The notes under the pieces were generated by a model. The model was not told where the DNA came from. It saw only the letters and a list, made by a program, of their open reading frames with translations, and ran no database searches. 64,000 nucleotides of DNA from an uncultured Desulfosoma sp. (lineage in GTDB: Bacteria > Desulfobacterota > Syntrophobacteria > Syntrophobacterales > DSM-9756), in the NCBI GenBank assembly GCA_937960435.1, contig CALGPN010000003.1, forward strand, positions 62,001-126,000, read 5' to 3'. The translations under genes and the position numbers were made by a program. Of this stretch, positions 2,547 to 22,565 are shown piece by piece; positions within the stretch are counted from its first letter, which is position 1, and every line of letters starts with the position of its first letter.

Positions 2547-2574
2547 TTGACTTGAGGTGTCCTTAGGCTATACT
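2547..2574 (+). promoter_or_regulatory. Sigma-70 type promoter for pyrG
   Basis: TTGACT at 2547-2552 and TATACT at 2569-2574 are separated by 16 bases, giving five of six matches in each hexamer. It lies about 78 bases ahead of the preferred pyrG start and is oriented toward it. Confidence 0.7.
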
Positions 2575-2576
2575 AA

Positions 2577-4328
<1,752 letters not shown>

Positions 4329-5896: not shown

Positions 5897-7001
5897 GCCT
5901 GTCCAGCAGGAATCGCTTGTAGGTTGTTTCGCCCATGGGGATGCCGAGAAAATCGCGGGCCCATGAGGGTCTTTCGGCGAAAAGGGAGACGAAAAACCCG
6001 GGAAACCGATAGACCCAGCGGGCGAAAAAAGCGGCATATTGAAGGTTGTCCCCCAGAGTCTGAAGGCACCGGGATCGAAAGATCCGGTGGAGACGTCCAC
6101 GGAGCGTTCCCTCGAGGGCGTCGGCGATGGTGTCCGCAGCCAGTTGGCCAGAGCGAACCGCATAGAAAATCCCCTCCCCGGAAAAGGCTTCCCCAAAACC
6201 GCCGGCATCGCCCGCGTAAAGGATTCGTTCGGAGCCGAGCACGGGGGCGATGCCGCGGCACGGGATGGGGCTGCCGCTATAGCGGTCTTCTTCGGGACCT
6301 CCTAGCCTCTTGAGAAAGGTGCGGAAAGTGGCGCCGGTCGGCACCCGGCCCCGGTGGAGTCCCCCCACCCCGATGGAGAAGGCCCCCCGAAGGGGAAAGA
6401 CCCAGCCGTAGCCGTCGGGGTGGGCGTCAAAATAAAATTCCAGGACCCCGTCTTGCGGTCGGGTGGAAAGCCACGCCGCCGAGGCGTCGAAGCGGCGCGT
6501 GACGGCCTTCCATCGTCGCCCTTCGGTTCCCGGGCCGGGATGCCGCTGATGCAAGACGCCGCCGGCCCCATGGGCAAGAATCACGTATCGGCTCTGATAC
6601 ACACTGGCGGAGGTCTGTATCGTGACGGAGGATTGGGTCTCTTCGAGGCGCAGGACCTTTTCCCCCATGTGGAACGCGGCGCCGGATTCCCGAGCTTTTT
6701 CCATGAGTAGCGCATCGAAGGCTTCGCGGCGCACCATCACGGCGATGGGACGGGATCGGCGGGCTTCCATCCGCCGACGGCCGTAGACGGCTCGGATGCC
6801 GTACACAAAGCCTTCTTGGACTGTTTCCGTCAGAGGAAAGTCCAAGGCATTGACCCCATTCATGGATAAAGCGCCGCCGCAGGGCTTGTGCCGGGGGAAT
6901 CGCTCCTTTTCGAAACACAGGGTCTTCAATCCTCGTTGGGCCGCCCTTCGGGCGGCGCAGGCTCCCGCAGGGCCGCTTCCCACAATGATGCAATCCATCA
7001 T
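5862..7001 (-). CDS. FAD-dependent oxidoreductase, geranylgeranyl reductase-like family
   Basis: A flavoprotein of about 380 residues. The N-terminal dinucleotide fold is CIIVGSGPAGACAARRAAQ, followed by the FAD-contact segment PRHKPCGGALS. A GDAGGF motif about two thirds along is the second FAD-binding signature of this group. Relatives reduce isoprenoid double bonds or act as monooxygenases; a role on a menaquinone or lipid prenyl chain is possible, but the substrate is unknown. The longer frame from 7076 adds 25 low-quality residues; the ATG pair at 7001/6998 sits right at the Rossmann motif. It is the only minus-strand gene between kdsC and lptC and interrupts an otherwise continuous LPS cluster. 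Confidence 0.8.
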   Translation of the reverse strand: MMDCIIVGSGPAGACAARRAAQRGLKTLCFEKERFPRHKPCGGALSMNGVNALDFPLTETVQEGFVYGIRAVYGRRRMEARRSRPIAVMVRREAFDALLMEKARESGAAFHMGEKVLRLEETQSSVTIQTSASVYQSRYVILAHGAGGVLHQRHPGPGTEGRRWKAVTRRFDASAAWLSTRPQDGVLEFYFDAHPDGYGWVFPLRGAFSIGVGGLHRGRVPTGATFRTFLKRLGGPEEDRYSGSPIPCRGIAPVLGSERILYAGDAGGFGEAFSGEGIFYAVRSGQLAADTIADALEGTLRGRLHRIFRSRCLQTLGDNLQYAAFFARWVYRFPGFFVSLFAERPSWARDFLGIPMGETTYKRFLLDRLRQGLRKNTGW

Positions 7002-7115
7002 CTTCTTCGACCTTGGCTCAAATCTCTGAAGATCCACCTCTCGTCCCAAACATCCACCACCGACTCGTAAAGGCAAAAGCCGGGCCTGTCAATCCTTGGG
7101 TGTCGGGCATGATCC

Positions 7116-7144
7116 TTTACAGTGCAAAAGAGCGCGTGTTAAAT
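7116..7144 (+). promoter_or_regulatory. Candidate sigma-70 promoter for the lptC operon
   Basis: TTTACA at 7116-7121 and TTAAAT at 7139-7144 are spaced by 17 bases, between the divergent FAD reductase and lptC. The -10 matches only four of six positions, so confidence is moderate. Confidence 0.45.
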
Positions 7145-7187
7145 AGCCTAGGAATTCGGTAGAAAGGCGAAAGGAGACGGGCGCTTC

Positions 7188-7772
7188 ATGAAAGGAACCG
7201 GGAAGGTGGTCCCATGGCTGTTGGTGACGGCGGCCGTCGGAGTCACGGCGATTTTCTCATACGCCTTCATGAAGGCGCACAAGGAGAAGACCTCGGCTGG
7301 AATCGTGCCCCCGACGTCGGTCGATTCGGATATCCGCCTGACCGATATGGATTATACGGAAATCCAGGAAGGCAAGCCCATGTGGCGCATCAAGGCCCAT
7401 GAGGCGAAATACTATGAGGGTGAACAAAAGACCTTGCTGAGCCAAGTGGACCTCACGCTTTTTATGGAAAACGAGCGCGAAGTGCGCCTGGTGAGCGACC
7501 ACGGCCTCCTCCACACCGGCCGCAAGGACATCGAACTGTGGGGTCGTGTGACGGCTCGCGTGCCGCAAGGCTATGAGGTTCAAACCGACAAGGTCTATTA
7601 CGAACACGAGGCCCAGAAAATACGGTCTCCTTCTCCTGTGCGCCTCACAGGACCTCAGGTGGATCTTCAAGGCAACCAATGGCATTATGATTTGGCGACC
7701 TCCACGGTGTCCGTGGAAGGAGAGGTTCGCGCCTTTGTCCGGGGGCTCTCTTTGGTGGGGACGGGAAAGTAA
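7188..7772 (+). CDS. lptC: LPS export periplasmic protein LptC
   Basis: A 194-residue protein with one N-terminal membrane segment (about residues 7-27) and a periplasmic beta-jellyroll region. In the Lpt bridge it passes LPS from LptBFG to LptA. AAGGAG lies 12 bases before the ATG. The stop and the lptA start overlap (TAATG), and lptA and lptB follow in the usual order. lptF/lptG are not in the window. Confidence 0.88.
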   Translation: MKGTGKVVPWLLVTAAVGVTAIFSYAFMKAHKEKTSAGIVPPTSVDSDIRLTDMDYTEIQEGKPMWRIKAHEAKYYEGEQKTLLSQVDLTLFMENEREVRLVSDHGLLHTGRKDIELWGRVTARVPQGYEVQTDKVYYEHEAQKIRSPSPVRLTGPQVDLQGNQWHYDLATSTVSVEGEVRAFVRGLSLVGTGK

Positions 7773-8380
7773 TGAGCGAGCTTGAAAAGGCCTCGACAAT
7801 TTTTCCGGCGGCCGGTAGGCGCAGGGCGCGCTGGCTTTTGGCGTTCTTGTGCCTCATGGCGACGCTCGGAACCGACCCCACGGGGCTTCGGGGGCAGAGC
7901 CAAAGTGCTGTTCCGACGCGTTCCGGGCAGGAGGGCGCAAAGCCCATCAACATCGCCAGTGACCGGATGGTGGCGGATCAAAAAAGTCGGACGGTGGTCT
8001 TCCAAGGCCATGTGACGGTGCAGCAGGGCGCCATGACCATGACCGGGCAGACACTCACCGTTTATGGCTCGGAAAAGACCAAAGGCGCCGGAAGTGCTTC
8101 GGGTGAAGTGACGGGAGAGCAGATCGAACGGATCGAGGTGGAAGGCAACGTGGTCATTTCCGAAGGAGACCGTGTGGCCACGTGTCAGAAGGCCGTGTTC
8201 TACAACAAAGAGCAAAAAATTGTGCTCATGGGCGCTCCTGTGCTCGTCCAAGGCAAGGACAGGGTGCAAGGTGACCTTATCACCCTTTACCTTGAAGATC
8301 AGAGAAGCGTGGTGGAAGGTCGGGCCGGCAATCCTGTCCAGGCGGTTTTTCATCCTAAAGAAGCGCCCAAGAAACCATGA
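7772..8380 (+). CDS. lptA: LPS export periplasmic protein LptA (OstA domain)
   Basis: A 202-residue secreted protein. A hydrophobic segment at residues 20-33 (WLLAFLCLMATLG) is probably the signal sequence. The mature part shows the repeated OstA pattern: INIASDRMVADQKSRTVVFQ, then VEGNVVISEGDRVATCQKAV. It forms the periplasmic filament that carries LPS to LptDE. Start and stop overlap both neighbours (TAATG with lptC, ATGA with lptB), so translation is coupled. Confidence 0.9.
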   Translation: MSELEKASTIFPAAGRRRARWLLAFLCLMATLGTDPTGLRGQSQSAVPTRSGQEGAKPINIASDRMVADQKSRTVVFQGHVTVQQGAMTMTGQTLTVYGSEKTKGAGSASGEVTGEQIERIEVEGNVVISEGDRVATCQKAVFYNKEQKIVLMGAPVLVQGKDRVQGDLITLYLEDQRSVVEGRAGNPVQAVFHPKEAPKKP

Positions 8381-9111
8381 CGGCTTCGGGACGCGTTTTG
8401 CGCACGGAGGGCCTGGTCAAACAATACGGCGGGCGGATCGTTGTCGATCGCGTGAGTCTGGAGGTGCATCAGGGAGAAGTTGTGGGGCTCCTCGGCCCCA
8501 ACGGGGCGGGGAAATCCACCACCTTTTACAGTGTCATCGGCATCATCCGACCGGACGCGGGGGCGGTTTACCTGGATGACGAGAACATCGTCGAGGACCC
8601 CATGTACCTTCGGGCGCGCAAAGGGATCACGTATCTTCCTCAAGAACCGTCCGTGTTTCGGAAGTTGACCGTCGAAGAGAACCTCTTGGCCATCATGGAA
8701 ACGTTGAAGATCGGCCGAGAAGAGCGAAAACAACGGGTTCAAGAGTTGTTGCGCGACCTCCACATTGATCATCTAGGGCGCAGCCGAGCGGATAGACTGT
8801 CGGGAGGAGAACGGCGTCGTCTGGAAATCTGCCGGGCTTTGGTCACGCAGCCCAGCTTCATTTTGTTGGACGAACCTTTTGCGGGCATCGATCCGATCGC
8901 CGTTGTGGAGATCCAAGGCTTGATCCGTTCCTTGAGAGACCGCGGGATCGGTGTGTTGATTTCCGATCACAATGTCCGAGAGACGCTCAGAGTCTGCGAT
9001 CGCGCGTACATCATGCACGAGGGGCGGATCCTGGAACAGGGGCCTCCGCAAGTGCTCGCCCAGAGCGAGCTGGCCCGCAGAACCTACCTCGGACAGGAAT
9101 TCAGCCTTTAG
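8377..9111 (+). CDS. lptB: LPS export ABC transporter ATPase LptB
   Basis: A 244-residue cytosolic ATPase that powers LPS extraction from the inner membrane. Walker A is GPNGAGKST, the Q-loop is in TYLPQEPSVF, the ABC signature is LSGGERRRLEI, and Walker B is FILLDEPFAGIDP followed by the H-switch in SDHNV. The FAGIDP form is typical of LptB. Its ATG overlaps the lptA stop and rpoN follows by 15 bases, the classic lptCAB-rpoN order of proteobacteria. Confidence 0.95.
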   Translation: MTASGRVLRTEGLVKQYGGRIVVDRVSLEVHQGEVVGLLGPNGAGKSTTFYSVIGIIRPDAGAVYLDDENIVEDPMYLRARKGITYLPQEPSVFRKLTVEENLLAIMETLKIGREERKQRVQELLRDLHIDHLGRSRADRLSGGERRRLEICRALVTQPSFILLDEPFAGIDPIAVVEIQGLIRSLRDRGIGVLISDHNVRETLRVCDRAYIMHEGRILEQGPPQVLAQSELARRTYLGQEFSL

Positions 9112-9126
9112 GGACGGGAAGACGTT

Positions 9127-10578
9127 ATGGCTTTGGAACTCAAGCAACACATGAAACTGACGCAGCAACTGATCATCACCCCGCAGTTGCAGCAAGCCAT
9201 CAAACTCTTGCAACTCTCTCGGTTGGAGCTCCTGGAGACGATCCAGCAGGAGTTGGAGGTCAACCCGGTTCTGGAGGAAGCCGCAGAAGCGGTGGAAGAC
9301 GTTGGGATGAAGGGCGAAACGGAACCGGAAGCCCCGAGGGCGGAAGAACGCTACGAGGAAGTGGAGATTACGGAAAAGGTTCGGGACGATTTCGACTGGG
9401 AAAGCTTTCTTGAGGATTACAGCACGTACGCCCCGGTGACCAACGAAAGGGATCCCAACCAGGAGCAGCCGTCTTTCGAGCAGCGGCTGACCTCCAAGCC
9501 GTCCTTGGAAGACCACTTGATGTGGCAGCTGTGCCTGTCGGACTTTACGGAAGAGGAGCGAGAGATCGCCATTCAGATCATCGGCAACCTCAACTCCGAC
9601 GGCTATCTTCTGGCGAGCGTCGATGAAATCGCCCAGCTCACGGGCGTTTCGGCGCATCGTGTGGAGCATGTTTTAAGGAAAGTCCAGGGGTTTGATCCAC
9701 CGGGGGTGGCCGCCCGGAGTCTTCAAGAATGCCTCCTGATTCAGGCGCAGACCCTGGAGCCTCGCAATGGGCTGGTGGAGACCATCATCGAGCGCTACTT
9801 GCCCTATTTGGAAAACAAGAACTACCAGGGGTTGGTGAAGATTCTTCGACGGCCCAAGGAAGAAGTGCGGGCGGCTGTGGAGGTCATCCTGAGCTTGGAC
9901 CCGAAGCCGGGACGGGTTTACAGTGAAGAAGAGGTTCATTATGTCAGTCCCGACATTTATGTGCTCAAGGTGGACGATGAATTTGTGGTGGTGCTCAACG
10001 AGGACGGCATGCCTAAACTGAGGATCAACCCGTATTATAAGGAGGCCTTACGCCGGGATTCCGCGGTGCCGGAAGAGGCCAAAGAGTACATACAAGGAAA
10101 GCTTCGCTCCGCGGCGTGGTTGATCAAAAGTATTCATCAGAGACAGCGGACTTTATACAAAGTGGCCCAGAGTATCGTCAACTTTCAAAGGGACTTTTTC
10201 GAAAAGGGGATCGCTTACCTTAAACCCATGGTCCTGAGGGATGTGGCGGAAGATGTGGGCATGCATGAATCCACCATTAGTAGGGTCACCACCAATAAGT
10301 ACATGCACACACCCCAGGGGATTTTTGAGTTGAAATATTTCTTTAACAGTTCCATAAATAGCGTGGTGGGGGAAGCTGTCGCTTCAGAAAGCGTCAAAGA
10401 ACGCATTCGTCAGCTGATTCGCGAGGAAGACCCGGCCAACCCCTACAGTGATAAGGACTTGGTCGATCTTCTTCAAAAAGAGAACATCCGGATCGCACGC
10501 CGAACGGTCGCCAAATATCGGGAGATGCTCGGCATTCTTCCTTCCCATAAGAGAAAGCGCGTGCTCTGGGGGGCGTGA
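9127..10578 (+). CDS. rpoN: RNA polymerase sigma-54 factor
   Basis: 483 residues. Region I is the Gln/Leu-rich MKLTQQLIITPQLQQAIKLL, which contacts activators. An acidic region II follows, then the core-binding region, a helix-turn-helix, and the RpoN box ARRTVAKYREMLGI near residue 460, which reads the -24 element. It directs transcription only with AAA+ activators; one such activator is encoded at 31.6-33.8 kb, with a candidate -24/-12 promoter beside it. It is followed by hpf and ptsN as in many proteobacteria. Confidence 0.96.
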   Translation: MALELKQHMKLTQQLIITPQLQQAIKLLQLSRLELLETIQQELEVNPVLEEAAEAVEDVGMKGETEPEAPRAEERYEEVEITEKVRDDFDWESFLEDYSTYAPVTNERDPNQEQPSFEQRLTSKPSLEDHLMWQLCLSDFTEEEREIAIQIIGNLNSDGYLLASVDEIAQLTGVSAHRVEHVLRKVQGFDPPGVAARSLQECLLIQAQTLEPRNGLVETIIERYLPYLENKNYQGLVKILRRPKEEVRAAVEVILSLDPKPGRVYSEEEVHYVSPDIYVLKVDDEFVVVLNEDGMPKLRINPYYKEALRRDSAVPEEAKEYIQGKLRSAAWLIKSIHQRQRTLYKVAQSIVNFQRDFFEKGIAYLKPMVLRDVAEDVGMHESTISRVTTNKYMHTPQGIFELKYFFNSSINSVVGEAVASESVKERIRQLIREEDPANPYSDKDLVDLLQKENIRIARRTVAKYREMLGILPSHKRKRVLWGA

Positions 10579-10630
10579 TTTGTCGGGGCCGGCGAGGATC
10601 CACAGAGGAACAAAGACAAGGAGTGTGCCT

Positions 10631-11170
10631 ATGCAGATAAATGTGGCGTTTCGACACACGGAACCTTCGGACGCATTGAAAATGTACGCGGAAGATAAGG
10701 TATCTAGGATCAAAAAATACCTGGAGGAGCCCATCGAGGCCAATGTGGTGCTGCAGGTGGAAAAATTTCGCCATATCGCCGACGTCACCGTGGAATCCAA
10801 CGGCGTTCGTATTAATGCGAGAGAAGAGACGGAAGATATGTATTCCGCCATTGACATGGTGGTGGACAAGTTGGAAGGACAGGTGAAAAAGTACAAAGAA
10901 AAACTTCGAAACCGCAAACCGTCCGCGTCGGAACGCGCCCAGAAACTCATGATGAACGTTCTGGAATGGCCTGCCGAAGAGGCTGGGGAGCCTCGAGTGG
11001 TGACGAGTCAGCAGATTTACGCCAAGCCCATGGACGTGGATGAGGCGGTGATGCAGCTCAATCTGTCCAACGGAGATTTCTTGGTTTTTACCAACCGTGC
11101 CACCATGAGCGTCAACGTTTTGTATCGCCGCAAAGACGGCAACTACGGTTTGATCGAACCCGTGCAATGA
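10631..11170 (+). CDS. hpf: Ribosome hibernation promoting factor, long form
   Basis: A 179-residue protein. The N-terminal S30AE domain (MQINVAFRHTEPSDALKMY through about residue 100) binds the ribosome decoding area. The C-terminal domain (about 120-179) has the dimerisation core of long HPFs that form 100S particles, including DVDEAVMQL and FTNRATMSVNVLYRRKDG. AAGGAG at 10618-10623 precedes the ATG by seven bases, so the upstream 61 codons of the open frame, which overlap rpoN, are not used. Placement after rpoN is standard. Confidence 0.93.
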   Translation: MQINVAFRHTEPSDALKMYAEDKVSRIKKYLEEPIEANVVLQVEKFRHIADVTVESNGVRINAREETEDMYSAIDMVVDKLEGQVKKYKEKLRNRKPSASERAQKLMMNVLEWPAEEAGEPRVVTSQQIYAKPMDVDEAVMQLNLSNGDFLVFTNRATMSVNVLYRRKDGNYGLIEPVQ

Positions 11171-11244
11171 CCCGCGGCAGAGGGCTTTGAGACCATGATC
11201 CCCGCGAAGGGGAAAAGGCATCGAGGGAGGATCCCGAAGGGTTG

Positions 11245-11706
11245 ATGAAGATTGTGGACATCTTGCCCAAAGAGGCGATTATTGCCGAACTGGAAGCGAA
11301 GACGAAAAAAGAGGTTTTGGAGGAGCTGACGGATGCGCTGCTCCGGCACAAACCTCAATTGGATCGCGCTCGTTTGCTGGAAGTGCTCCTGGAGCGGGAA
11401 AAACTGGGGAGCACGGGCATTGGGGAAGGAATCGCCATTCCTCACGGCAAAATCGAAAACTTGGACCAACTGGTGCTTTCCTTCGGACGGTCGACCCGAG
11501 GGATCGACTTTGAATCCATGGACGGCAAGCCCGCGCACCTTTTCTTCCTGCTGGTGGCTCCGGAAAACTGTGCGGGCATCCATTTAAGGGCCCTGGCGAA
11601 AATCGCCCGGTTCCTGAAAAGCGCCGCCGTGCGTCGCCGCTTGGGGCTTGCGGCGTCTCAAGAAGAGATCTTCGAAATCATCAAACAGGAAGACGATGAT
11701 TTTTGA
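11245..11706 (+). CDS. ptsN: PTS IIA-like nitrogen regulatory protein
   Basis: A 153-residue EIIA of the fructose/nitrogen PTS type. The phosphorylatable His is in GEGIAIPHGK (H67). It normally accepts phosphate from the NPr/EI-Ntr chain and acts by protein contacts rather than sugar transport. A TTG at 11242 immediately precedes the ATG chosen here. It sits in the rpoN-hpf-ptsN order seen in many proteobacteria. No HPr or enzyme I gene is encoded nearby, so its phosphate donor is not visible in this window. Confidence 0.92.
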   Translation: MKIVDILPKEAIIAELEAKTKKEVLEELTDALLRHKPQLDRARLLEVLLEREKLGSTGIGEGIAIPHGKIENLDQLVLSFGRSTRGIDFESMDGKPAHLFFLLVAPENCAGIHLRALAKIARFLKSAAVRRRLGLAASQEEIFEIIKQEDDDF

Positions 11707-11951
11707 CCCGCGGACCGATACGGTTTTCTGGGGAGTTGGGCGATGCCCCGACTCCCCCTTTTGTTTCTCGCAGAAGCTGGAAAAGAGCCTAATCCAAAGA
11801 CTCGAGCGCCCCATGTGATGAGAGTTGGGGACTCCTTTTCTGGTCGCAGAAACGGCGGGGACGGGCAACGGCCTGTCTCTGCAAATCCTCCCCCCCCACG
11901 CAACGGATTCTGGGCGTCCAGGGCGGCCAAAAGACTCAAGGGCGGGTGAAA

Positions 11952-12830
11952 ATGCCGAAAAGGGACACACATCTTGTGATTGTCACAGGGCTTTCGGGCT
12001 CGGGTAAAAGCACGGCCATCAAAGCTTTTGAAGATATCGGGTATTTTTGTATCGATAACCTGCCGGTGCCTTTGCTGCCGCATTTTCTCCAGTTGTGTGA
12101 GCAGGACAAGCCCGATCTCAAAAAGGTGGCTCTTGGAATCGATATCCGGGGGCGAAGTTTCCTCCATGACTGCGATCGACTGTTTCATCATGTGGAATCT
12201 GCCGGTTACGCCTTGGAAATTCTCTTTTTCGAAGCCGCCACGGAGGTGCTCCAAAGGCGTTTCAGCCAAACGCGCCGCCTCCATCCCATGAGCACCCAAG
12301 AATCTTCTTTGCTCACGGCGATCCAAGAAGAACGGGAGGAATTGGCGTCCTTGCGGGCTCGATCGACCCGCATCGTGGATACCAGCGAGTTTTCCGTGCA
12401 CCAGCTCAAAGCGCTTATCACCCGAACGTATTCCATGGTGAGCGATCGGGAAAGGATCAGCGTGCAGGTCTTGTCCTTTGGTTTTAAGTACGGCTTGCCT
12501 TTTGAGGCCGATCTGGTGATGGATGTGCGGTTTTTGCCGAACCCGTTCTTTGTGGACGCTCTGAAGCCTCTCAGCGGCTGTGAGGCGCCGGTGCGGGATT
12601 GGGTCTTGAGCCATCCCCAAGCCGCGCAGTTTCTCGACGATTACGCCGCACTTTTGCTCAAATTGCTGCCTCAATACGTGCAGGAAGGCAAGCGTTACCT
12701 CACGGTGGCCGTAGGCTGTACGGGAGGCAAGCACCGCTCTGTGGTCATTGCCGAGCGCCTTGCTGACAGGGTGCGCGCTGCAGGTTATTATACAGTATTA
12801 TTTCATCGCGACGTGCACCTGGACGGGTGA
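11952..12830 (+). CDS. rapZ: RNase adapter RapZ, P-loop NTPase
   Basis: A 292-residue protein. Walker A is VTGLSGSGKSTAIKAFED at the N-terminus. The C-terminal domain has the conserved signature VAVGCTGGKHRSVVIAERL. In enteric bacteria it binds small RNAs and RNase E to control GlmS. In other phyla it binds nucleotides and its target is unclear. A GTG at 11946 is an alternative start. A 239-base gap after ptsN shows no clear promoter. The EIIA(Man) gene follows, the usual neighbourhood. Confidence 0.93.
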   Translation: MPKRDTHLVIVTGLSGSGKSTAIKAFEDIGYFCIDNLPVPLLPHFLQLCEQDKPDLKKVALGIDIRGRSFLHDCDRLFHHVESAGYALEILFFEAATEVLQRRFSQTRRLHPMSTQESSLLTAIQEEREELASLRARSTRIVDTSEFSVHQLKALITRTYSMVSDRERISVQVLSFGFKYGLPFEADLVMDVRFLPNPFFVDALKPLSGCEAPVRDWVLSHPQAAQFLDDYAALLLKLLPQYVQEGKRYLTVAVGCTGGKHRSVVIAERLADRVRAAGYYTVLFHRDVHLDG

Positions 12831-12880
12831 ACGGTGTTTCGGCCCGGAATGTGGCCGAAGAGCAGGAGACAACACCGAAT

Positions 12881-13339
12881 ATGGCAAGGCTCGGTTTGGT
12901 CGTCGCCGCTCACTGTCGTGTGGCCCAGGAGATGGTCAAAGCGGCTGAACTCATCTTGGGGCCGATGGAAGCCGCTCGGGCCGTTTCCATGGACCCGCAC
13001 ACTCCTGTGGAAGAAATGGTGCGTGCGCTCTCGGAGGCTATCAAAGAGGTGGATGCCGGGCACGGGGTCATTGTCCTCACGGACCTTTTCGGCGGTACCC
13101 CTTCCAATATCGCCCTTTCCTTCGCCGGGACCCGGGTGGAGGTTCTGAGCGGCTTCAATCTTCCCATGTTGATCAAGTTTGCGGAAATTCGAGACACCCT
13201 CTCTGTCCGCAAAGCCGCCGAAGTGCTAAGGGATTACGGGCGTCGCCACGTGTCTTTGGCGAGTGAGATTTTATCTGCCGGATCGGAGGCGAAGGGACGG
13301 GAGTCGAACCATGAGCGTTCATCTGCCCCTTCTCATTGA
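12881..13339 (+). CDS. PTS mannose-type EIIA domain protein
   Basis: A 152-residue EIIA(Man)-like protein. The N-terminus MARLGLVVAAHCRVAQEM carries the candidate phosphorylated His (H11), and VLTDLFGGTPSNIAL is the conserved second motif. In deltaproteobacteria this gene usually lies after rapZ and before HPr and enzyme I, forming an incomplete regulatory PTS. Here rimI comes next instead. The ATG at 12881 is chosen because the family begins there and AGGAG lies upstream; a GTG at 12827 overlapping rapZ would add 18 poor residues. Confidence 0.88.
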   Translation: MARLGLVVAAHCRVAQEMVKAAELILGPMEAARAVSMDPHTPVEEMVRALSEAIKEVDAGHGVIVLTDLFGGTPSNIALSFAGTRVEVLSGFNLPMLIKFAEIRDTLSVRKAAEVLRDYGRRHVSLASEILSAGSEAKGRESNHERSSAPSH

Positions 13340-13838
13340 GCCCATGCAGCTCGAAGACCTTCCGGCCGTTTTGGATATCGAAAGGGCCAGTCATGTGGAT
13401 CCGTGGAAGGAATCTTTTTTCGCGGAGGAGCTGACCCGGCCCCACGCCGTCAATTTGGTGGCGCGACTGAGAGACGACAGGCGTCGGATTGTCGGATACA
13501 TCTGCGTGTGGCTTGTGGCCGATGAGGTGCAGATCTTCAATCTGGCCGTGGATCCCGCCGTAAGACGGCGAGGTGTGGGGCGACGATTGCTCCTGACGGC
13601 GCTGCAAAAGGCCTGCACACAAAACGCCCGGATGGCCTTTTTGGAAGTGCGCCGCAGCAACCTCGCGGCCCAAAAGCTTTACGAAACCATCGGGTTTCGC
13701 CCCTCAGGGCTGCGGCCCGATTATTACGATGGGATTAGAGAACCGGCGGTGCTCATGGAATTGGAGATGGACCGCGGGTGGCGGTCCCGGTGGTTGCTCT
13801 CCGAAGCCGGTTGGATGGATGGAGAGAGGTCGTGTTGA
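13311..13838 (+). CDS. rimI: Ribosomal protein S18-alanine N-acetyltransferase family (GNAT)
   Basis: A 175-residue GNAT acetyltransferase. The acetyl-CoA-binding motif is VDPAVRRRGVGRRLL, and the C-terminal motif is RSNLAAQKLYETIGF, with the SHVDPWKESFF segment typical of RimI. Known family members acetylate the N-terminal Ala of S18; some act on other proteins. The ATG at 13311 lies inside the end of the preceding gene (29-base overlap), and its stop overlaps the start of the PPDK-like gene by seven bases, so the three are translationally linked. The C-terminal tail of about 15 residues is extra. Confidence 0.88.
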   Translation: MSVHLPLLIEPMQLEDLPAVLDIERASHVDPWKESFFAEELTRPHAVNLVARLRDDRRRIVGYICVWLVADEVQIFNLAVDPAVRRRGVGRRLLLTALQKACTQNARMAFLEVRRSNLAAQKLYETIGFRPSGLRPDYYDGIREPAVLMELEMDRGWRSRWLLSEAGWMDGERSC

Positions 13839-16800
13839 CGCAAAGCCCCACAAGCGCGAGCGTGCAATCGGAGGCGCTCCTGAAGAATCTCATGGTGACG
13901 AACGTCCCGGTGACAGTGCACCCCGGCCATGAGGTGTTGGTGGATGCGGTGCGGGGTTACGCCGGCAAGGAGAAACAAGCCCGGGATCTTCTTGTGGAAT
14001 ACCACCACCGGTACCGCAACTGGACGTATGTGCTTCAGGAAGCATGGCGTTACGCCACAGGCAATCTTCGCTTGTACAGACACTACCATGACAGCGCCGG
14101 GGTGGTGGTTCTATTGTGCCGCATTTTTCTTCACGCTCTCTCCGATGCGGGAAACCCCAAGACCCAAGCTACGGCCGCGGATCACCTCATCGCTCTGTGG
14201 CTGAAGATCGTTGAGGAAGCTCCCGAGTTGTGCCGTGAAGTTGAGATCGACATGACGGCGCACTGGGATGAGGATCCGCTGCCGCACGGGGCGGCCCATG
14301 GGGGCATCTTGCGATGGTGTTTTGCGAGATTGCAGGATCTGGAACCGCCCTGTTTCGAGTGGGTCGTTCGCAGTTTCTACCAGCCCAAGAAGCTCTTGAC
14401 CCGGTGCCTCGCCTTGTGGTCTTCCTCTGCGTCCTTCGAGGAGGGACGTCTCCTGCTCGAGCGGCTTCTCACGGTCACGCACTCCTTTTGGGCCGAACGA
14501 GAGGACCCTTTGGCGTGGCTGAGCCGGCAGCTCCACGAAGAGGAAGACGTGGAGGCATGGCGGGGTCTCTTTTCGCCGCTGCTTAAGGAGGACCACGAGT
14601 GGGCTCTGCGTCGTGTGCGGCGCATCGCCGCAGAAAAGGACCCGCGGCGTGCCGTTGAGCAATTGTGCGATCTTCCCGATTTTCGAGATGTGGTCCGAGC
14701 CTACCAGCAGCTTCCGGACAAGGTGGGTCGAGCCGTATCGCCGGAGCACGCGGGCCATGTGAGCATGTTGCTGCGATTGCGGATCATGGAAACCAAGGGG
14801 TTGGAGCCCATCCATGAAGAGACTTTGCGCGCCATGAACATGGACGTAGGGCGGTGGATTCGCGAAGAATCCCAGGAAACGCTTCGGCCCAGACTCACCC
14901 GGTTCCTTCAGGTTCTCCGAGGTTGCCTGAACAATTACCCGGAGGCGGCCTTGCACTGCGTGCGCACCGTCGGGTTGGAAATCCTGTCGACCGACGATCG
15001 GGACCTCATCGAGTTTTTTATCCGCCATGTGATCTGGTTGGGGTTTCAGACGCCGAAACTGAAAGGGGTTTCCCAATACTGGCAGGTCCAGGTCAATCCG
15101 GCGCATTTGACCAACATCCGCGTGTGGTTGGACCTCATCCGCAAGAGTCCGCGCCGCACTCGAAATCTGCTTTCCGCGCTCATTGTCAATCTGTTTCTCG
15201 GCGGCATCTATGTCCGGGACACGGACCTTTTTCAAAAGGACGTCAGCCTGCTCCTGCACGCGCCCATTGGGCCTCTCTACAACCTGGTCAAACAGCTGAC
15301 CAAGCTCTTCCCCGTGTATTTCAATGAAGTGGGGGCGGAGGGTCTGCTCCGGGCGGTTTCCACGGACGTGGACGAGATCACCCAACGGGGGGACCCGCTC
15401 ATTCATTTCCTGCGCAAACAAAGCCACGTGGAAAGTAACAACCTGATCGTGCTCTTTATCGAAGCCATCTTTCACTTCTGGCACACCTTGGACAAGGAGC
15501 CGCTGAAAAAATTCGTCCCCCCCGAAGTTTTCCGGGACGTTGCCGAATCCGGGCCTTTTGTCGATGAGATGCATCGCATCTTTTGTCGGATCTTTTCCGG
15601 TGAAGACGGCGTTCACCACGTCAAGGACCTTTTGGACCTCCCCGAGGAAAACATCCGAAGGAAAATCGAAAACATCGATGGCGTCTCAGGGCGAGAAAAA
15701 CAGCGGGCCTTCCTCATGATTCGGTTCTATCAGCTGCTGCACGAAAAGTACGCCCTGAGTTTTAAAGATATTCAAATCCATTTGCGGCGGGCCATCCAGT
15801 TGGGATTGCCGGATCCCAGACCTCTAGAGGAAGCCCTCCAAAGCCAAGACCCCCTGACCAAGCTCGAAGCGATTTTGGACTACCTGGAGGAGCTCAAGAA
15901 GATTATTCTCACTGAGGAAGAAATGACCTATGTGGAAAATATATATCTTAAACGACATATCGCCGTGGATATTCCTTCCATGTACGGTTCCTACAGCGAG
16001 CGGAAATTCGACGCCCTGGGGTTGACTTTCCGGTTGGAAAACTTGGCGAACGTTCTTTTCGAGGAGATCATCCTGTCCTTCAACCTGAGTTTCATCACAC
16101 GGGCGACCTTTTTTCGCATCCGCCGCATTCTGCCTCTTTTCATTAAAGCTTTGGCCCTCGATGGGATCACGTCCCGGAGGCTGGACCGTCAGGAGGAACT
16201 TTTCCAGCGGGCTTTGCAAATCCGCAGGTTTTCCCACTCGCAATACATGGACATTTTTCGAGGTTTTTCGGAAGCCATCAAGCAGATCATCCAGACCTTT
16301 TACAATGCGGTCCACGAAGACAATCTTGCGGTCATTATTCGGCAACTGAGTCAGTCGGGAGACCTTTTGCCGCGGTATCGCCCCCGAGACATGGGGGAGC
16401 GGGCCGACGAGCGGGTCCACCGCATTTCGGAAACCTTCCTGCGGGATCTCGTAGCGCGCACTTTCGGTTTGCAGTATTTCGACCACTTCATCAGCAGTAT
16501 TCTCACGACATTGGCAACCCAAAAGGAAGAGCTGACAACGGAAAAGCTCGATCTTCTGCTGAGCTACGATCCAGAAAAAACCATATCTCGTATTTATGCC
16601 CCTGATGAAACCACGTACGATCTCATTCACCTGGGCAACAAAGGTTATAACCTCACCCAACTTCATGAACTCGGCATTCGTGTGCCCCCGGGCTTCATCA
16701 TCACCACGGAGTATTTCCGATGCCAGGACGTGATCGATAGCCTTCCCCAGTCCAAAGAGGATTTCAAGGCGCGCGTGTTGGCGCACATCGCCGATCTGGA

Positions 16801-18109
16801 AGAAAAGTCCGGGCGGCGGTTCGGAGATCCTCGGGATCCTTTGTTGCTGTCCGTGCGCAGTGGTTCGGCCGTCTCCATGCCCGGGATGATGAATACGTTC
16901 CTCAATGTGGGGATCAATGAACGTATCGTGGAGGGGCTCATCCGGCAAAGCGGGCAACCGTGGTTCGCCTGGGACAACTACCGGCGTTTCGTCCAATCGT
17001 GGGGCATGTCTTTCGGCTTGGATCGAGACCATTACGACGCGATCATGAGATTTTACAAGAAGAAGTACGGACGGGTGTTTAAAAGGGAGTTCACGCCTGA
17101 AGAAATGCGGGACGTGGCCCTCGCCTATCGCGACTACACGCGCCAGTCCAAGATCGAAATCACAGACGACCCTCAGGAACAGTTGTTTACGGCGATCCGT
17201 CAGGTCATGGAATCGTGGTTCTTCCCCAAGGCCATCACGTACCGGCAGATCATGGGACTTTCGGAAAACTGGGGGACGGCGGTCACCATTCAAACCATGA
17301 TTTTCGGCAACCTGGACCTGGAATCGGGTTCCGGCGTCATGTTCACGCACAATCCCTGGACCTCGGAAGACGAGATCGATCCCAGAGGGGACTTTACGTT
17401 GGGCAACCAAGGCGAAGACGTGGTGGGCGGCTTGGTGGAGACCTTGCCGCTGTCGGAAAAGCAGCGTCTGGCGGCGGCGGAGCGCAAAGAGCACTCCTTG
17501 GAGTCGTTGTTCCCCCAAGTTTTTCAACGCTTGACCGACATCGCGAAAGAACTCATTTACAGGCAGAAATGGGGTCCTCAGGAAATCGAATTCACGTTTC
17601 AGGGTGGGGACGGCGATGGGCTTTACATCTTGCAGTCCCGCAACATGGCTCCGCGCACCCGCCGGCGCTACCCATGTTTCAAGGTGACAGAGGAACTGGA
17701 AAAAAGTTACCTTGGCAGCGGCATCGGGGTGAGCGGCGGGGCGTTGTGTGGGCGTGTGGCTTTCGAACTCAACGATATCGTGCGTTTGAAAAAGGACTAC
17801 CCGGGCGAATCCATCATCCTGATCCGATCGGACACCGTGCCAGATGACATCCACGAGATTTCCATCGCCGACGGCCTTCTGACCGGCAAAGGCGGGGCGA
17901 CCTCCCATGCGGCCATTGTCGCCCACCGTTTGGGCAAGACCTGCGTCGTGGGCTGTTCTAAAATGCGGGTCTGGGAACGGGACGGCCGATGCCTCATTGG
18001 GGGGCGGTTTCTGAGAACAGGGGACGTGATCGGTATCGATGGGCGCAGCGGAGGCATCTATTTCGGGTTCCATGTCACGGAAAAACCGGAAGAAGACACG
18101 GCTCCGTGA
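13832..18109 (+). CDS. Giant PPDK-like phosphotransferase: ATP-grasp and phosphohistidine domains, no PEP/pyruvate barrel
   Basis: 1425 residues from GTG 13832 (GAGAGAGG just upstream); the ATG-less extension to 13778 lies within rimI. Residues 1 to about 930 are predicted mostly helical and match no family I know. From about 931 the sequence is the N-terminal nucleotide-binding domain of pyruvate phosphate dikinase: LGNKGYNLTQLHELGIRVPPG, SVRSGSAVSMPGMMNTFLN, then GSGVMFTHNPWTSEDE and EIEFTFQ. A phosphohistidine swivelling domain follows, GKGGATSHAAIVAHRLGKT with catalytic His at about 1359. The protein ends there: the C-terminal TIM barrel that binds PEP/pyruvate in PPDK is absent. So it can be expected to move phosphate from ATP to its own His, with an unknown final acceptor. 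Neighbours are EIIA proteins, rimI and glycolytic genes. Confidence 0.85.
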   Translation: MLTQSPTSASVQSEALLKNLMVTNVPVTVHPGHEVLVDAVRGYAGKEKQARDLLVEYHHRYRNWTYVLQEAWRYATGNLRLYRHYHDSAGVVVLLCRIFLHALSDAGNPKTQATAADHLIALWLKIVEEAPELCREVEIDMTAHWDEDPLPHGAAHGGILRWCFARLQDLEPPCFEWVVRSFYQPKKLLTRCLALWSSSASFEEGRLLLERLLTVTHSFWAEREDPLAWLSRQLHEEEDVEAWRGLFSPLLKEDHEWALRRVRRIAAEKDPRRAVEQLCDLPDFRDVVRAYQQLPDKVGRAVSPEHAGHVSMLLRLRIMETKGLEPIHEETLRAMNMDVGRWIREESQETLRPRLTRFLQVLRGCLNNYPEAALHCVRTVGLEILSTDDRDLIEFFIRHVIWLGFQTPKLKGVSQYWQVQVNPAHLTNIRVWLDLIRKSPRRTRNLLSALIVNLFLGGIYVRDTDLFQKDVSLLLHAPIGPLYNLVKQLTKLFPVYFNEVGAEGLLRAVSTDVDEITQRGDPLIHFLRKQSHVESNNLIVLFIEAIFHFWHTLDKEPLKKFVPPEVFRDVAESGPFVDEMHRIFCRIFSGEDGVHHVKDLLDLPEENIRRKIENIDGVSGREKQRAFLMIRFYQLLHEKYALSFKDIQIHLRRAIQLGLPDPRPLEEALQSQDPLTKLEAILDYLEELKKIILTEEEMTYVENIYLKRHIAVDIPSMYGSYSERKFDALGLTFRLENLANVLFEEIILSFNLSFITRATFFRIRRILPLFIKALALDGITSRRLDRQEELFQRALQIRRFSHSQYMDIFRGFSEAIKQIIQTFYNAVHEDNLAVIIRQLSQSGDLLPRYRPRDMGERADERVHRISETFLRDLVARTFGLQYFDHFISSILTTLATQKEELTTEKLDLLLSYDPEKTISRIYAPDETTYDLIHLGNKGYNLTQLHELGIRVPPGFIITTEYFRCQDVIDSLPQSKEDFKARVLAHIADLEEKSGRRFGDPRDPLLLSVRSGSAVSMPGMMNTFLNVGINERIVEGLIRQSGQPWFAWDNYRRFVQSWGMSFGLDRDHYDAIMRFYKKKYGRVFKREFTPEEMRDVALAYRDYTRQSKIEITDDPQEQLFTAIRQVMESWFFPKAITYRQIMGLSENWGTAVTIQTMIFGNLDLESGSGVMFTHNPWTSEDEIDPRGDFTLGNQGEDVVGGLVETLPLSEKQRLAAAERKEHSLESLFPQVFQRLTDIAKELIYRQKWGPQEIEFTFQGGDGDGLYILQSRNMAPRTRRRYPCFKVTEELEKSYLGSGIGVSGGALCGRVAFELNDIVRLKKDYPGESIILIRSDTVPDDIHEISIADGLLTGKGGATSHAAIVAHRLGKTCVVGCSKMRVWERDGRCLIGGRFLRTGDVIGIDGRSGGIYFGFHVTEKPEEDTAP

Positions 18110-18151: not shown

Positions 18152-19477
18152 ATGAGCGAACAGGAAACGATGGTTCCTCAAAAGCTGGGCATCAACGGTT
18201 TGGGGCGGATCGCCAAACTGAGCATTTGGCACCATGTGGAACGCCGGTATTTTTCCGAACTCGTGGTGAACATCGGTCGAGACGTGGGCCAGAGCCTAGA
18301 TGACATCGCTCTTTTTATCGAAAAAGATTCCACCTATGGACGCCTTCACCATTTCCTTTACGGTTGCCGCGCCTCCCGCGTCATCGAAGAAATCAACGAC
18401 AAAGAAGGATCCATGCGCATCAACGGGGTGAAGGCGACCTTTCTTCGAAAACACCGCAATCCCGCCGACATCGGATGGAAGGACCACGGTGTGGAAATCG
18501 TGGTGGATGCGACGGGGGCTTTCTTGGACCCGACGGTGCCTGCCGAGGATCCCAAGGGATCGGTTCGAGGGCACTTGGCGGCCGGAGCGCGGAAAGTGAT
18601 CGTTTCGGCGCCGTTTAAGATCAAGGACAAATCCAAAGAAATGCCGGCGGACGCGGTGACCACCGTCATGGGCATCAACGATGCGGATTTCGATCCCAAG
18701 CGCCACGTGATTGTGTCTCATGCGTCGTGTACCACCACGTGTCTGGCCTATATGGTGAAGCCCCTCTTGGACTATTTCGGTCCCATGCGCATCCTGTCGG
18801 CGTCCATGGCCACGGTCCACGCCGCCACGCCCTCCCAGCAGGTGCTGGACCGAGCTCCCAAAGCCAAAGCGGACGATCTGAGAAAAACCCGCTCCGTTTT
18901 CAATAACATCATCCTCACCACGACGGGTGCCGCCAAGGCCTTGGGGTTGGTCATCCCGGAAATGAAGGAAATCGGCTTTATCGCCGAGTCGGTTCGGGTG
19001 CCCGTGACCACGGGTTCCTTGATCATTTTGGTGGTCTTGATCCAAGATGAAAGCATGAAGAATCCCATCAACCGCCGCCTCATCAACGACATCTACCGCA
19101 AGGCCCAGGCGCACTTTCCCGAAGGCTACCTGCGCTATACGGACGAACAGAACGTGTCGTCGGACATCATCGGACTGCCGAGGGCGGCCGCGGTCATCGA
19201 AGGCCATGAGACCCACACTCGCACGGCGGCCGTGCGCTTCGACCTGAACCATGTGCTCAGCGTCTGCGCGGCCCTTTCTTCTGAACAAGGACCTTCTTTC
19301 GATGTGGACACGGCGCTCAAGAACGTGGACAAGACTCTGGATGCGGACCAAAAGGCGAGGATCATCCAAATTCCGGTGACGCAAGCGGTCATTTACGGCT
19401 GGTACGATAACGAGTTGGGAAGCTACACGAACATGTTGGGGGACCGAACGGTCAGTATTGCCAAGATGCTGCGCTAA
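18152..19477 (+). CDS. Divergent long glyceraldehyde-3-phosphate dehydrogenase
   Basis: A 441-residue GAPDH-family protein, about 100 residues longer than the enzyme encoded next door. The NAD-binding start is GINGLGRIAKLSIWHH. The catalytic Cys lies in SHASCTTTCLAY, where the usual Asn after CTT is Thr. The partner His is kept in ATVHAATPSQQ and the C-terminal WYDNELGSY motif is intact, so activity is likely. The extra length is mainly an insertion in the first third (HHFLYGC to about HRNPADIGW) and one before the Cys. AGGAGGAGG precedes the ATG. Cofactor or substrate preference may differ from the classical copy. Confidence 0.9.
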   Translation: MSEQETMVPQKLGINGLGRIAKLSIWHHVERRYFSELVVNIGRDVGQSLDDIALFIEKDSTYGRLHHFLYGCRASRVIEEINDKEGSMRINGVKATFLRKHRNPADIGWKDHGVEIVVDATGAFLDPTVPAEDPKGSVRGHLAAGARKVIVSAPFKIKDKSKEMPADAVTTVMGINDADFDPKRHVIVSHASCTTTCLAYMVKPLLDYFGPMRILSASMATVHAATPSQQVLDRAPKAKADDLRKTRSVFNNIILTTTGAAKALGLVIPEMKEIGFIAESVRVPVTTGSLIILVVLIQDESMKNPINRRLINDIYRKAQAHFPEGYLRYTDEQNVSSDIIGLPRAAAVIEGHETHTRTAAVRFDLNHVLSVCAALSSEQGPSFDVDTALKNVDKTLDADQKARIIQIPVTQAVIYGWYDNELGSYTNMLGDRTVSIAKMLR

Positions 19478-19500
19478 CTGTGGGGACAAAGGAGAAGAGC

Positions 19501-20508
19501 ATGGCCATCAAAGTCGCGATTAACGGTTTCGGTCGCATCGGGCGGATGGTGTTTCGAGCCAACGTGGAGCGGGGGAATCCCCTGGATGTGGTGGCGCTGA
19601 ACGATTTGGGGAGCCCCGCCGAACTGGCGTATTTGCTGCGCTACGATTCCGTACACGGCACATGGAATCGGGACATTTCGGCGGATGAGCAACACATTTA
19701 CGTGGACGGCAAGGCCTACAAATGCCTCAAGGTCGGCGATCCAAGCCAAGCTCCGTGGAAAGACTTGGGCGTGGACATCATCCTGGAGACCAGCGGTCGG
19801 TTTCGAGACAAGGCAAGCTGTCTCAAGCACCTGGACTCCGGGGCTCGCAAGGTCATCGTCGGCGCTCCTGGCAAGGGCATGGACGCGACCTTTGTCATGG
19901 GCGTCAATGAAGACCAGTACGATCCCATGAAGCACCACATCGTCTCCAACGCCTCGTGCACCACGAACTGTTTGGCGCCCATCGTCCGCGTGCTCCACGA
20001 CCGTTTCGGCATCGAACACGGCCTCATGACCACCATCCATTCTTACACCATGGACCAAAGGCTCTTGGACGCTCTGCACAAGGATCTCCGGCGGGCGCGA
20101 GCGGCGGCCTTGTCCATGGTGCCTACGACGACCGGAGCAGCGACGGCGGTGGCCGAAGTCATTCCGGAACTCAAAGGCAAACTGGACGGCATGGCCATCC
20201 GCGTTCCCACGCCCAATGTCTCCATTGTGGATCTGGTCTGCCGTGTGGAAACCGAGGCCACGGTGGAAACGGTAAACCGGGCTCTCAAGGAAGCCGCCGA
20301 AGGGCACATGAAAGGCATCTTGCGATACGTAGATGAAGAGCTTGTTTCGGTGGATTTCAATCACACTTCGCACTCTTCGTGCGTGGACGCGCCGCTCACC
20401 AAGGTCATCGAAGGTCGGATGGTGAAGGTGCTCAGCTGGTACGACAACGAATACGGGTACTCCAACCGCCTGGTGGATTTGGCGTTGCACATGGGCAGGC
20501 AACTCTAG
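19501..20508 (+). CDS. gap: Glyceraldehyde-3-phosphate dehydrogenase, type I
   Basis: A 335-residue canonical enzyme converting glyceraldehyde 3-phosphate to 1,3-bisphosphoglycerate. It starts AIKVAINGFGRIGRMVFRA (NAD fold). The active-site Cys is in SNASCTTNCLAP, the His in TIHSYTMDQ, and the C-terminus has SWYDNEYGYSNR. AAAGGAG lies eight bases ahead of the ATG at 19501. It follows the divergent GAPDH by 23 bases and precedes pgk and tpiA in one glycolytic/gluconeogenic operon. Confidence 0.96.
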   Translation: MAIKVAINGFGRIGRMVFRANVERGNPLDVVALNDLGSPAELAYLLRYDSVHGTWNRDISADEQHIYVDGKAYKCLKVGDPSQAPWKDLGVDIILETSGRFRDKASCLKHLDSGARKVIVGAPGKGMDATFVMGVNEDQYDPMKHHIVSNASCTTNCLAPIVRVLHDRFGIEHGLMTTIHSYTMDQRLLDALHKDLRRARAAALSMVPTTTGAATAVAEVIPELKGKLDGMAIRVPTPNVSIVDLVCRVETEATVETVNRALKEAAEGHMKGILRYVDEELVSVDFNHTSHSSCVDAPLTKVIEGRMVKVLSWYDNEYGYSNRLVDLALHMGRQL

Positions 20509-20583
20509 AGGGCGATCGGCGCGGCGTCCGGATTGGCATTGAGGCCGTTTTCGCCGTGCGCGCAGACACAGGAGGGGCGAGCC

Positions 20584-21780
20584 ATGAAAACGCTGGATCA
20601 CGTGAACGTTTCGGGGAAACGAGTATTTATCCGCGTGGATTTTAACGTTCCCCTGGACAAGAAGGACGGCCGGGTGGCCGATGACGCTCGGATTCAGGCC
20701 ATCTTGCCTACCCTGAACAAGGTCGTGAACTCGGGAGGCAAAGCCGTTTTGGCGTCCCATCTGGGACGGCCCAAGGGAAAGGTGGTGCCGGAGATGAGTT
20801 TGGCGGCTGTGGCGCGGCACCTGTCAGGCCTCCTGGGAAAGGACGTGCCGCTAGCCCCCGATTGCATTGGGGGCGCCGTGCGATCCATGGTGGAATCCCT
20901 TAGGGAAGGCGGGGTGATCCTTTTGGAAAACCTGCGTTTTCATCCCGAAGAGGAAAAAAACGATCCCGATTTCTCCAGAGAACTGGCTTCCCTGGCCGAC
21001 GTCTACGTCAACGATGCCTTTGCCGTGTCCCATCGGGCCCATGCCTCGGTCCACGGGATCACGCGCTTTGTGGGCGAGTGCGCTGCGGGTTATCAGCTGG
21101 CGAAAGAAGTGGAATATTTCAAGAGATCCGTCGAAACCCCCGAGCGGCCTTTGGCGGTGGTGATCGGTGGTGCCAAGGTGTCCACGAAGATCGGGGTTTT
21201 GGAAAACCTGATTCCCAAGGTGGATCTCCTGGTGATCGGCGGGGCCATGGCCAACACGTTTCTCAAGGCCCAAGGCTATCCTGTGGGAAAATCCCTTGTG
21301 GAAGACGACTTTATCGCGAAGGCTCAAGAGCTTTTGGATTTGGCCAAGAACCGGGGTGTTCGGGTGATTCTGCCCGTCGACGTGGTGGTGGCCCCCAATT
21401 TGGATTCGACTGGACAAGCCCGTTCGGTGGAGCTGAAGGAGGTTCCGGAGGACGCCGGCATCTACGACGTCGGGGAGCGAACGGTTGAGGCCATCAAAGA
21501 GGCTTTGAGCCGGTGCGCCACCATCGTGTGGAACGGCCCTTTAGGGGCTTTTGAAACGCCACCCTTTGAAAAAGCAACGTTTGCCTTGGCCGAGTTTTTG
21601 GGCGCATCCAAGGCCCTTACGGTCATCGGCGGGGGCGATTCCGCCAGTGCCGTGAAAAAAGCCGGGGTGGATCGCAAGGTGAGTTATGTTTCCACCGGAG
21701 GCGGGGCTTTTCTGGAAATGATGGAAGGGAAAATCCTCCCCGGCATCGAAGCTCTGGAAGCCTGCATGGGCAAGGAGTAA
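20584..21780 (+). CDS. pgk: Phosphoglycerate kinase
   Basis: A 398-residue enzyme that transfers phosphate between 1,3-bisphosphoglycerate and ADP. N-terminal signature RVFIRVDFNVPLD, triphosphate-side motif SHLGRPKGK, then VVIGGAKVSTKIGVLENL, and the nucleotide loop GGGDSASAVKKAG near the C-terminus. GGAGG precedes the ATG at 20584; the open frame begins earlier but without family similarity. tpiA starts two bases after its stop. Confidence 0.97.
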   Translation: MKTLDHVNVSGKRVFIRVDFNVPLDKKDGRVADDARIQAILPTLNKVVNSGGKAVLASHLGRPKGKVVPEMSLAAVARHLSGLLGKDVPLAPDCIGGAVRSMVESLREGGVILLENLRFHPEEEKNDPDFSRELASLADVYVNDAFAVSHRAHASVHGITRFVGECAAGYQLAKEVEYFKRSVETPERPLAVVIGGAKVSTKIGVLENLIPKVDLLVIGGAMANTFLKAQGYPVGKSLVEDDFIAKAQELLDLAKNRGVRVILPVDVVVAPNLDSTGQARSVELKEVPEDAGIYDVGERTVEAIKEALSRCATIVWNGPLGAFETPPFEKATFALAEFLGASKALTVIGGGDSASAVKKAGVDRKVSYVSTGGGAFLEMMEGKILPGIEALEACMGKE

Positions 21781-21782
21781 GC

Positions 21783-22565
21783 ATGACGACCAGCGTGCGC
21801 ATACCCCTTATGGCGGCCAATTGGAAGATGCATCTCAGCATCGCGGAAGGTGTGGCGTTCATTGCCAAGCTCCATGAGCTCTTAGGAAATCCCCAAGACC
21901 GCGAGGTGCTCATCGCTCCCCCGTTCACGCACCTGTGGCCTCTACGGGAACCCATGGCAGCGGCGGGTTTTTCTCTGGCCGCTCAAAACTGCCATTGGGA
22001 AACCCAAGGCGCCTTCACGGGGGAAGTGTCTTTGACCATGATTGCGGAAACGGGGTGCCGCTACGTCATCGTGGGCCATTCGGAAAGACGCCATATCTTC
22101 GGGGAATCGGACGCATGGATCGGCCGCAAAACGGCCGCCGCCCTCTCCCGGGGGGTGGTCCCTATTGTGTGTATCGGCGAAAAGATCGAGGAGCGGGAGG
22201 CGGGTTTGACGGAGGAGGTCTTGCGCCGACAGCTCACGGCGGGCTTGGAAGGGCTCCGGGTGGACACGCCGGAGAAATTGGTCATTGCCTACGAGCCGGT
22301 GTGGGCCATCGGAACCGGTCGAACAGCGACGCCGGGCCAAGCCCAGGACGCTCACGCGTTTGTTCGAGGATGGCTTGCGCAGCGCTTTGATAAAGCGGTT
22401 GCAAACGGCATTCGGATATTGTATGGAGGCTCCGTGAAACCGGACAATGTGGACGATCTTATGGCCCAACCGGATATCGACGGGGCCTTGGTCGGCGGAG
22501 CGAGCCTGCAGGCGGACTCCTTCGCGCGGATCGTCCAGTATAAAAAAAGTGGGAAGAGTCCCTGA
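21783..22565 (+). CDS. tpiA: Triosephosphate isomerase
   Basis: A 260-residue TIM barrel interconverting the triose phosphates. It keeps the substrate Asn-Lys (MAANWKMH), the electrophilic His in IVGHSERR, the catalytic Glu in AYEPVWAIGTG (followed by the flexible loop), and ILYGGSVKPDN for phosphate binding. The stop overlaps the secG start (TGATG). Confidence 0.97.
   Translation: MTTSVRIPLMAANWKMHLSIAEGVAFIAKLHELLGNPQDREVLIAPPFTHLWPLREPMAAAGFSLAAQNCHWETQGAFTGEVSLTMIAETGCRYVIVGHSERRHIFGESDAWIGRKTAAALSRGVVPIVCIGEKIEEREAGLTEEVLRRQLTAGLEGLRVDTPEKLVIAYEPVWAIGTGRTATPGQAQDAHAFVRGWLAQRFDKAVANGIRILYGGSVKPDNVDDLMAQPDIDGALVGGASLQADSFARIVQYKKSGKSP

Follow-up and report, generated by a model that had tools for sequence, protein, structure and literature searches.

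A dikinase-like protein without the PEP/pyruvate barrel, paired with a divergent glyceraldehyde-3-phosphate dehydrogenase in Desulfobacterota

The window analyzed here, a whole stretch of 64,000 nt, encodes a dikinase-like protein (hereafter DIK) with gapA1 as the gene directly downstream of it, followed by further genes of lower glycolysis (Table 1). The DIK frame is open from 13778 to 18109, and counting residue 1 from the GTG at 13832 gives a complete ORF of 1425 codons. Because the TTG at 13835 is better spaced from GGAGAGAGG than this GTG is, the start is uncertain by one codon. Upstream, the genes lptA-lptB-rpoN-hpf-ptsN-rapZ-EIIA(Man)-rimI (window 7188-13838) run into the glycolytic block in an order that is kept in several families and that joins nitrogen-PTS and triose-phosphate genes.

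Table 1. Features of the DIK locus, in positions of the window
Feature	Position	Strand	Remarks
DIK, dikinase-like protein, 1425 aa	13832..18109	+	GTG start; TTG at 13835 possible
Residues 1-401, predicted HEAT-like alpha-solenoid, variable	13832..15034	+	AlphaFold2 model; 6 positions invariant among 76 sequences
Residues 402-926, helical core, conserved; proposed as acceptor module	15035..16609	+	model pLDDT 84.0, pTM 0.79
Conserved block 1, residues 402-560	15035..15511	+	R507, D514, R519, D521, R528, K529, H532, E534 invariant
Conserved block 2, residues 691-830	15902..16321	+	beta-hairpin 700-723 with invariant K707-R708-H709, IPS, Y718, Y721, E723; then R734, E736
PPDK-type ATP-grasp domain, residues 927-1290	16610..17701	+	K937, R1009, E1251, E1253, Q1268, R1270 invariant
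Phosphohistidine swivel domain, residues 1291-1414	17702..18073	+	GGATSHAA, His1359 (codon 17906-17908)
gapA1, divergent GAPDH paralog, 441 aa, near-obligate DIK partner	18152..19477	+	Cys193, His223 kept
gapA2, canonical type I GAPDH	19480..20508	+	
pgk, phosphoglycerate kinase, same apparent operon	20533..21780	+	start from ORF list
tpi, triose-phosphate isomerase, same apparent operon	21783..22565	+	sequence reading and synteny

Pfam searches matched only PPDK_N (2.4e-36) and PEP-utilizers (3.6e-17) in DIK, with no significant match upstream of residue 934. Among solved structures, the best match was PPDK over residues 934-1272, and a plant PPDK matched over 934-1418. Both SVRSGSAVSMPGMMNT (residues 1007-1022) and GGATSHAA (1354-1361, including His1359) are present; the swivel domain comes directly after the ATP-grasp domain, and the protein ends 11 residues past it. 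An alignment with the PPDK of the same genome showed that the Lys, Arg, Glu, Gln and His positions of both half-reactions are kept, except that Glu replaces Asp at one of them (E1251). Moreover, none of the 76 full or near-full sequences of our conservation set departs from the GGxTSH motif or from the main catalytic residues of a dikinase, which indicates that this engine is under selection. The completeness of the ATP-grasp and phosphohistidine domains, claimed by a first-pass annotation of this DNA, is thus borne out by Pfam, motifs and alignment.

The same annotation had stated that the PEP/pyruvate barrel is missing, and no barrel was indeed matched by Pfam, NCBIfam or PDB sequence search. 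The match of the C-terminal third to the NCBIfam PPDK model TIGR01828 (6e-116) is what one would expect if DIK were simply a PPDK or PEP synthase with an odd N-terminus. However, this match reaches 388 bits, far below the cut-off of 843, since DIK has no counterpart to the barrel half, and the model of the N-terminus described below is helical. In addition, most of the DIK genomes examined have a separate enzyme for making PEP, so that this is not the task of DIK there: a full PPDK is encoded elsewhere in four of them (G000, G132, G177 and G254) and a PEP-synthase-sized relative (about 815-830 aa) in four more (G028, G065, G029 and G269). The ordinary-enzyme reading is refuted on architecture, and we give it almost no credence. 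Outside the window, G000 also encodes another PPDK-like protein (contig C56, about 1856-3307, L171), which has about 984 aa and is very divergent (tree branch 2.2).

The N-terminus was modelled by AlphaFold2 using an alignment of 35 natural relatives. The model is confidently helical (pLDDT 84.1, pTM 0.77), as the first reading of the sequence had proposed, and contains only two strands of three residues or more (700-708 and 715-723), which form a single beta-hairpin. This rules out a TIM barrel that is hidden or permuted, including the circularly permuted PEP/pyruvate barrel that had been raised as a possible objection. The N-terminus had been described as one 930-residue region of no known kind, but it is composed of at least two segments, namely a solenoid that varies and a core that is conserved. 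In the model, residues 1-401 resemble a solenoid of the HEAT type. VIA matches of residues 1-400 to importin/VPS35-type proteins (Z 8-9.7) are as high as the helical-repeat background, and the Foldseek TM values are about 0.1-0.2. The core (525 residues), when modelled alone, is predicted with confidence equal to that of the whole N-terminus.

Further examination of conservation revealed 60 invariant residues in the N-terminus across the 76 sequences, 54 of which are located in the core. The density of invariant residues is 0.19 in residues 402-560 and 0.18 in the ATP-grasp domain, compared with 0.01 in the solenoid. Judged from the sequences, such a pattern would be expected of an active site rather than of a scaffold, and the idea that the N-terminus provides a swapped acceptor module appears plausible, with the core holding most of the invariant positions. 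The hairpin tip (707-716) is modelled with low confidence, yet its sequence is largely invariant; it could be a mobile active-site loop. Foldseek found no match to the core with E below 0.001, and VIA gave only short helical matches, such as those to TTYH channels, which cover about 100 residues with Z up to 9.5. We read these TTYH-type matches as helical background, and a missing match is no proof of a new fold. Structure searches of the N-terminus and the core gave no acceptor-site ligand or fold homology. In the single-contig, 1.8-Mb genome G065, DIK is split into two overlapping frames of 652 and 809 aa (L110, about 6430-10600), the break falling between conserved blocks 1 and 2. In its close relative L107, DIK is unbroken (1391 aa); the split may represent a frameshift, a sequencing error or a real fission.

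Like type I GAPDH, the protein encoded by gapA1 keeps the catalytic Cys and His together with the phosphate-site Thr and Arg residues. It differs from type I GAPDH in its length, in its family-specific insertions, in its N-x-G-R motif at the cofactor site and in its score against TIGR01534 (321.9 bits, under the equivalog cut-off of 367.2). GAPDHs normally have N-D at this site, which selects NAD, and its replacement by N-x-G-R suggests NADP as the cofactor of gapA1. It is worth noting that gapA1 is the sole protein with the GAPDH C-domain (PF02800) in three genomes (G028, G065 and G227), in which no archaeal-type GAPDH was found and DIK directly follows rimI, a spot held by gapA2 in relatives. 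These three carriers appear to have lost the ordinary GAPDH while keeping the gapA1 version. As the only PF02800 protein there, gapA1 very likely carries out the GAPDH reaction in them, unless a ferredoxin-linked or non-phosphorylating enzyme does so.

To describe the distribution of DIK, we used a sample of 297 Desulfobacterota genomes. Full-length relatives with the same architecture were found in 84 of them, which shows that the protein is no local artefact. gapA1 was present in 85 genomes, 83 of which have both genes (Fisher p = 2e-70, phylogeny not corrected for); the exceptions are one genome with DIK only (76% complete) and two with gapA1 only (79% and 62% complete). The pairing spans 32 families, genomes with unlinked genes included, and it does not reflect one inherited event because several families mix carriers and non-carriers. 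In most linked loci gapA1 comes directly after DIK, and in one clade the two genes are convergent. Unlinked gapA1 genes in several families lie elsewhere in the genome, often adjoining pgk. Linkage of DIK to gapA1 or gapA2, often with pgk-tpi, recurs in many families, gapA2-DIK-gapA1-pgk-tpi-secG being a frequent gene order. Where DIK stands apart from gapA1, its neighbours (P-type ATPase, ferredoxin-like, cation efflux and other genes) share no theme. The evolutionary-distance correlation with DIK is 0.90 for gapA1 versus 0.92 for gapA2, and so does not single out gapA1 as the partner. Outside Desulfobacterota, DIK was detected in one of 251 Chloroflexota genomes, a MAG labelled Chloroflexi that has the DIK-gapA1 pair (L031, 10001-15400); the other 250 have no pair. 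The DIK tree and the gapA1 tree place this pair in the same clade of Desulfobacterota, and it was therefore transferred, or mis-binned, as a unit.

The process, which the first-pass annotation had left blank, can be narrowed to triose-phosphate/phosphoglycerate metabolism because of the co-occurrence with gapA1 (83 of the 84 carriers) and the gapA2, pgk and tpi neighbourhood; for the acceptor there is still only a candidate. The conserved engine, the active-site-like core and the near-inseparability from an enzyme handling 1,3-bisphosphoglycerate point to a metabolite of this node as the compound that DIK phosphorylates. We thus lean, with slightly less than even confidence, towards a small-molecule dikinase that has a new acceptor module and works with gapA1. 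Given the conserved catalytic set, the ATP-grasp domain would phosphorylate His1359 from ATP, leaving AMP (plus PPi if Pi is a co-substrate, as in PPDK). The swivel domain would then deliver the phosphoryl group to a site in the core, where invariant polar residues are dense, and the acceptor would be a metabolite made or used by gapA1. Our first guess is 3-phosphoglycerate, because its phosphorylation would feed GAPDH directly at this node: the product, 1,3-bisphosphoglycerate, would be reduced by gapA1 to glyceraldehyde 3-phosphate, probably with NADPH. Taken on its own, this choice of acceptor is rather unlikely to be the right one. Since ATP would be split to AMP, the route would be one-way towards sugars and would offer a gluconeogenic alternative to the reversible PGK/GAPDH pair. 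Unlikely, too, is this picture in its complete form, namely a phosphoglycerate dikinase that forms AMP, has a helical acceptor fold of a new kind and feeds 1,3-bisphosphoglycerate to a dedicated NADPH-dependent GAPDH, so that many anaerobes would have an irreversible gluconeogenic route parallel to PGK/GAPDH. A point against the main reading is that PGK is present in all 62 genomes tested, including every DIK genome tested, so that no replacement is forced. The proposal that DIK replaces PGK in PGK-free genomes was rejected for the same reason; DIK does not fill in for a missing PGK.

The co-occurrence fits a regulator of gapA1 equally well, and the strongest rival to a metabolite dikinase is regulation of the VadK type. 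VadK (Rv1127c), which derives from PPDK but lacks the barrel, autophosphorylates on His422; it binds the enzymes of the methylcitrate cycle whose genes adjoin its own and limits the flux through them (PMC13400623). It is the closest published precedent for DIK: both have the nucleotide and His domains of PPDK, both have lost the barrel, and both genes adjoin those of metabolic enzymes, which in the case of VadK are the enzymes acted on. VadK differs from DIK in lacking a large N-terminal module and in its role, which is in the methylcitrate cycle of actinobacteria. A regulatory DIK would autophosphorylate on His1359, dock on gapA1 (perhaps also on other glycolytic enzymes) through its helical N-terminus, and tune flux by binding or protein phosphorylation, with no metabolite turnover. 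Besides the precedent of VadK itself, this would agree with the near-strict pairing with a single enzyme, with the family-specific insertions in gapA1, and with the solenoid, as HEAT-like solenoids are typically protein-docking surfaces. However, the invariant residues cluster in the core rather than in the solenoid, and many of them are polar residues of the type used in catalysis. When DIK, PPDK and a single VadK-like sequence (L036) are placed in one tree by the domains they share, the DIK sequences form one clade apart from both PPDK and L036 (branch length 0.90, split support 100). Moreover, a 1400-aa enzyme would be costly as a regulator, yet it is kept in genomes of 1.6-1.8 Mb. We regard regulation of this type as possible but somewhat doubtful. 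The conserved core speaks for catalysis and the solenoid, like the pairing with a single partner, for docking; both could hold.

A strong match to dsrA was found in 73 of the 84 carriers and in 71 of the 213 non-carriers (Fisher p = 9e-18, phylogeny not corrected for). This enrichment would suit an ATP-forming direction, in which an acyl phosphate produced by gapA1 would phosphorylate His1359 and AMP plus PPi would be converted to ATP plus Pi. AMP and PPi arise in sulfate activation by sulfate reducers, and both would be recycled in this manner; PPDK-type chemistry is reversible (PMC5371819). However, the 11 carriers without a strong dsrA match include some near-complete genomes, the 71 non-carriers have dsrA and no module, and gluconeogenesis would be the direction required in cells that have no supply of sugar. 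We consider the ATP-forming direction improbable. Restriction of the module to sulfate reducers was also rejected, dsrA being enriched but not strict.

Another role to be weighed is that of a substitute for enzyme I, in which DIK would use ATP to phosphorylate PTS proteins, either HPr or the EIIA proteins of the same operon. This idea derives from the ptsN, rapZ and mannose-type EIIA genes that lie just upstream of DIK here and in several other families. However, HPr and PTS_EIIA_2, the two proteins searched for, were absent from all seven f32 carriers tested, whose genomes measure 1.6-1.8 Mb and in four cases consist of a single contig, and from the single-contig carrier G014. Because these genomes carry DIK without either protein, PTS proteins are not the general acceptor; a general role of this kind is refuted, and any such function appears very improbable.

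The first-pass annotation had also compared DIK with glucan water dikinase. This is a poorer fit, as the His domain of glucan water dikinase is N-terminal to the ATP-grasp domain, opposite to the order in DIK. PPDK itself has the order and the conserved catalytic residues of DIK, whereas DIK has no PEP/pyruvate barrel, has about 930 extra N-terminal residues and forms its own clade. Dikinases with swapped acceptor modules acting on small molecules are established (PMC4844700, PMC12167813). In rifampin phosphotransferase (PMC4844700), the same engine is combined with another acceptor module in place of the barrel, and the order is ATP-grasp, acceptor and His; in DIK it is acceptor candidate, ATP-grasp and His. 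The model of this family (NF041857) scores 42.8 bits against DIK, with a cut-off of 999, and DIK has no RIF-binding domain between ATP-grasp and His. The phenolic dikinases HpeHI, CreHI and PpsAB (PMC12167813) act on small molecules and use an acceptor domain that is not the PPDK barrel, an arrangement only proposed for DIK. Unlike DIK, they consist of two separate subunits, have an RPH-like acceptor domain and occur in the context of aromatic catabolism.

Our literature searches found no published description of the DIK/gapA1 pair. As far as these searches show, the acceptor module, the domain order and the GAPDH partnership are undescribed, whereas the engine and acceptor swapping are already known. 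Lower glycolysis is viewed as near-invariant across life, and this two-gene module, for which we found no database family or paper, sits exactly there in 84 of the 297 Desulfobacterota genomes sampled. For many sulfate-reducing bacteria it suggests that central sugar metabolism has a step or a point of control not yet described; a new phosphoryl-transfer reaction and a new control of GAPDH would each add genuinely to what is known. Being small and clearly delimited, the pair is testable with purified proteins.

On the reverse strand, the window also encodes a large molybdopterin oxidoreductase of 1099 aa (25586-28885), located beside FmdE-like and MoCF_biosynth proteins.
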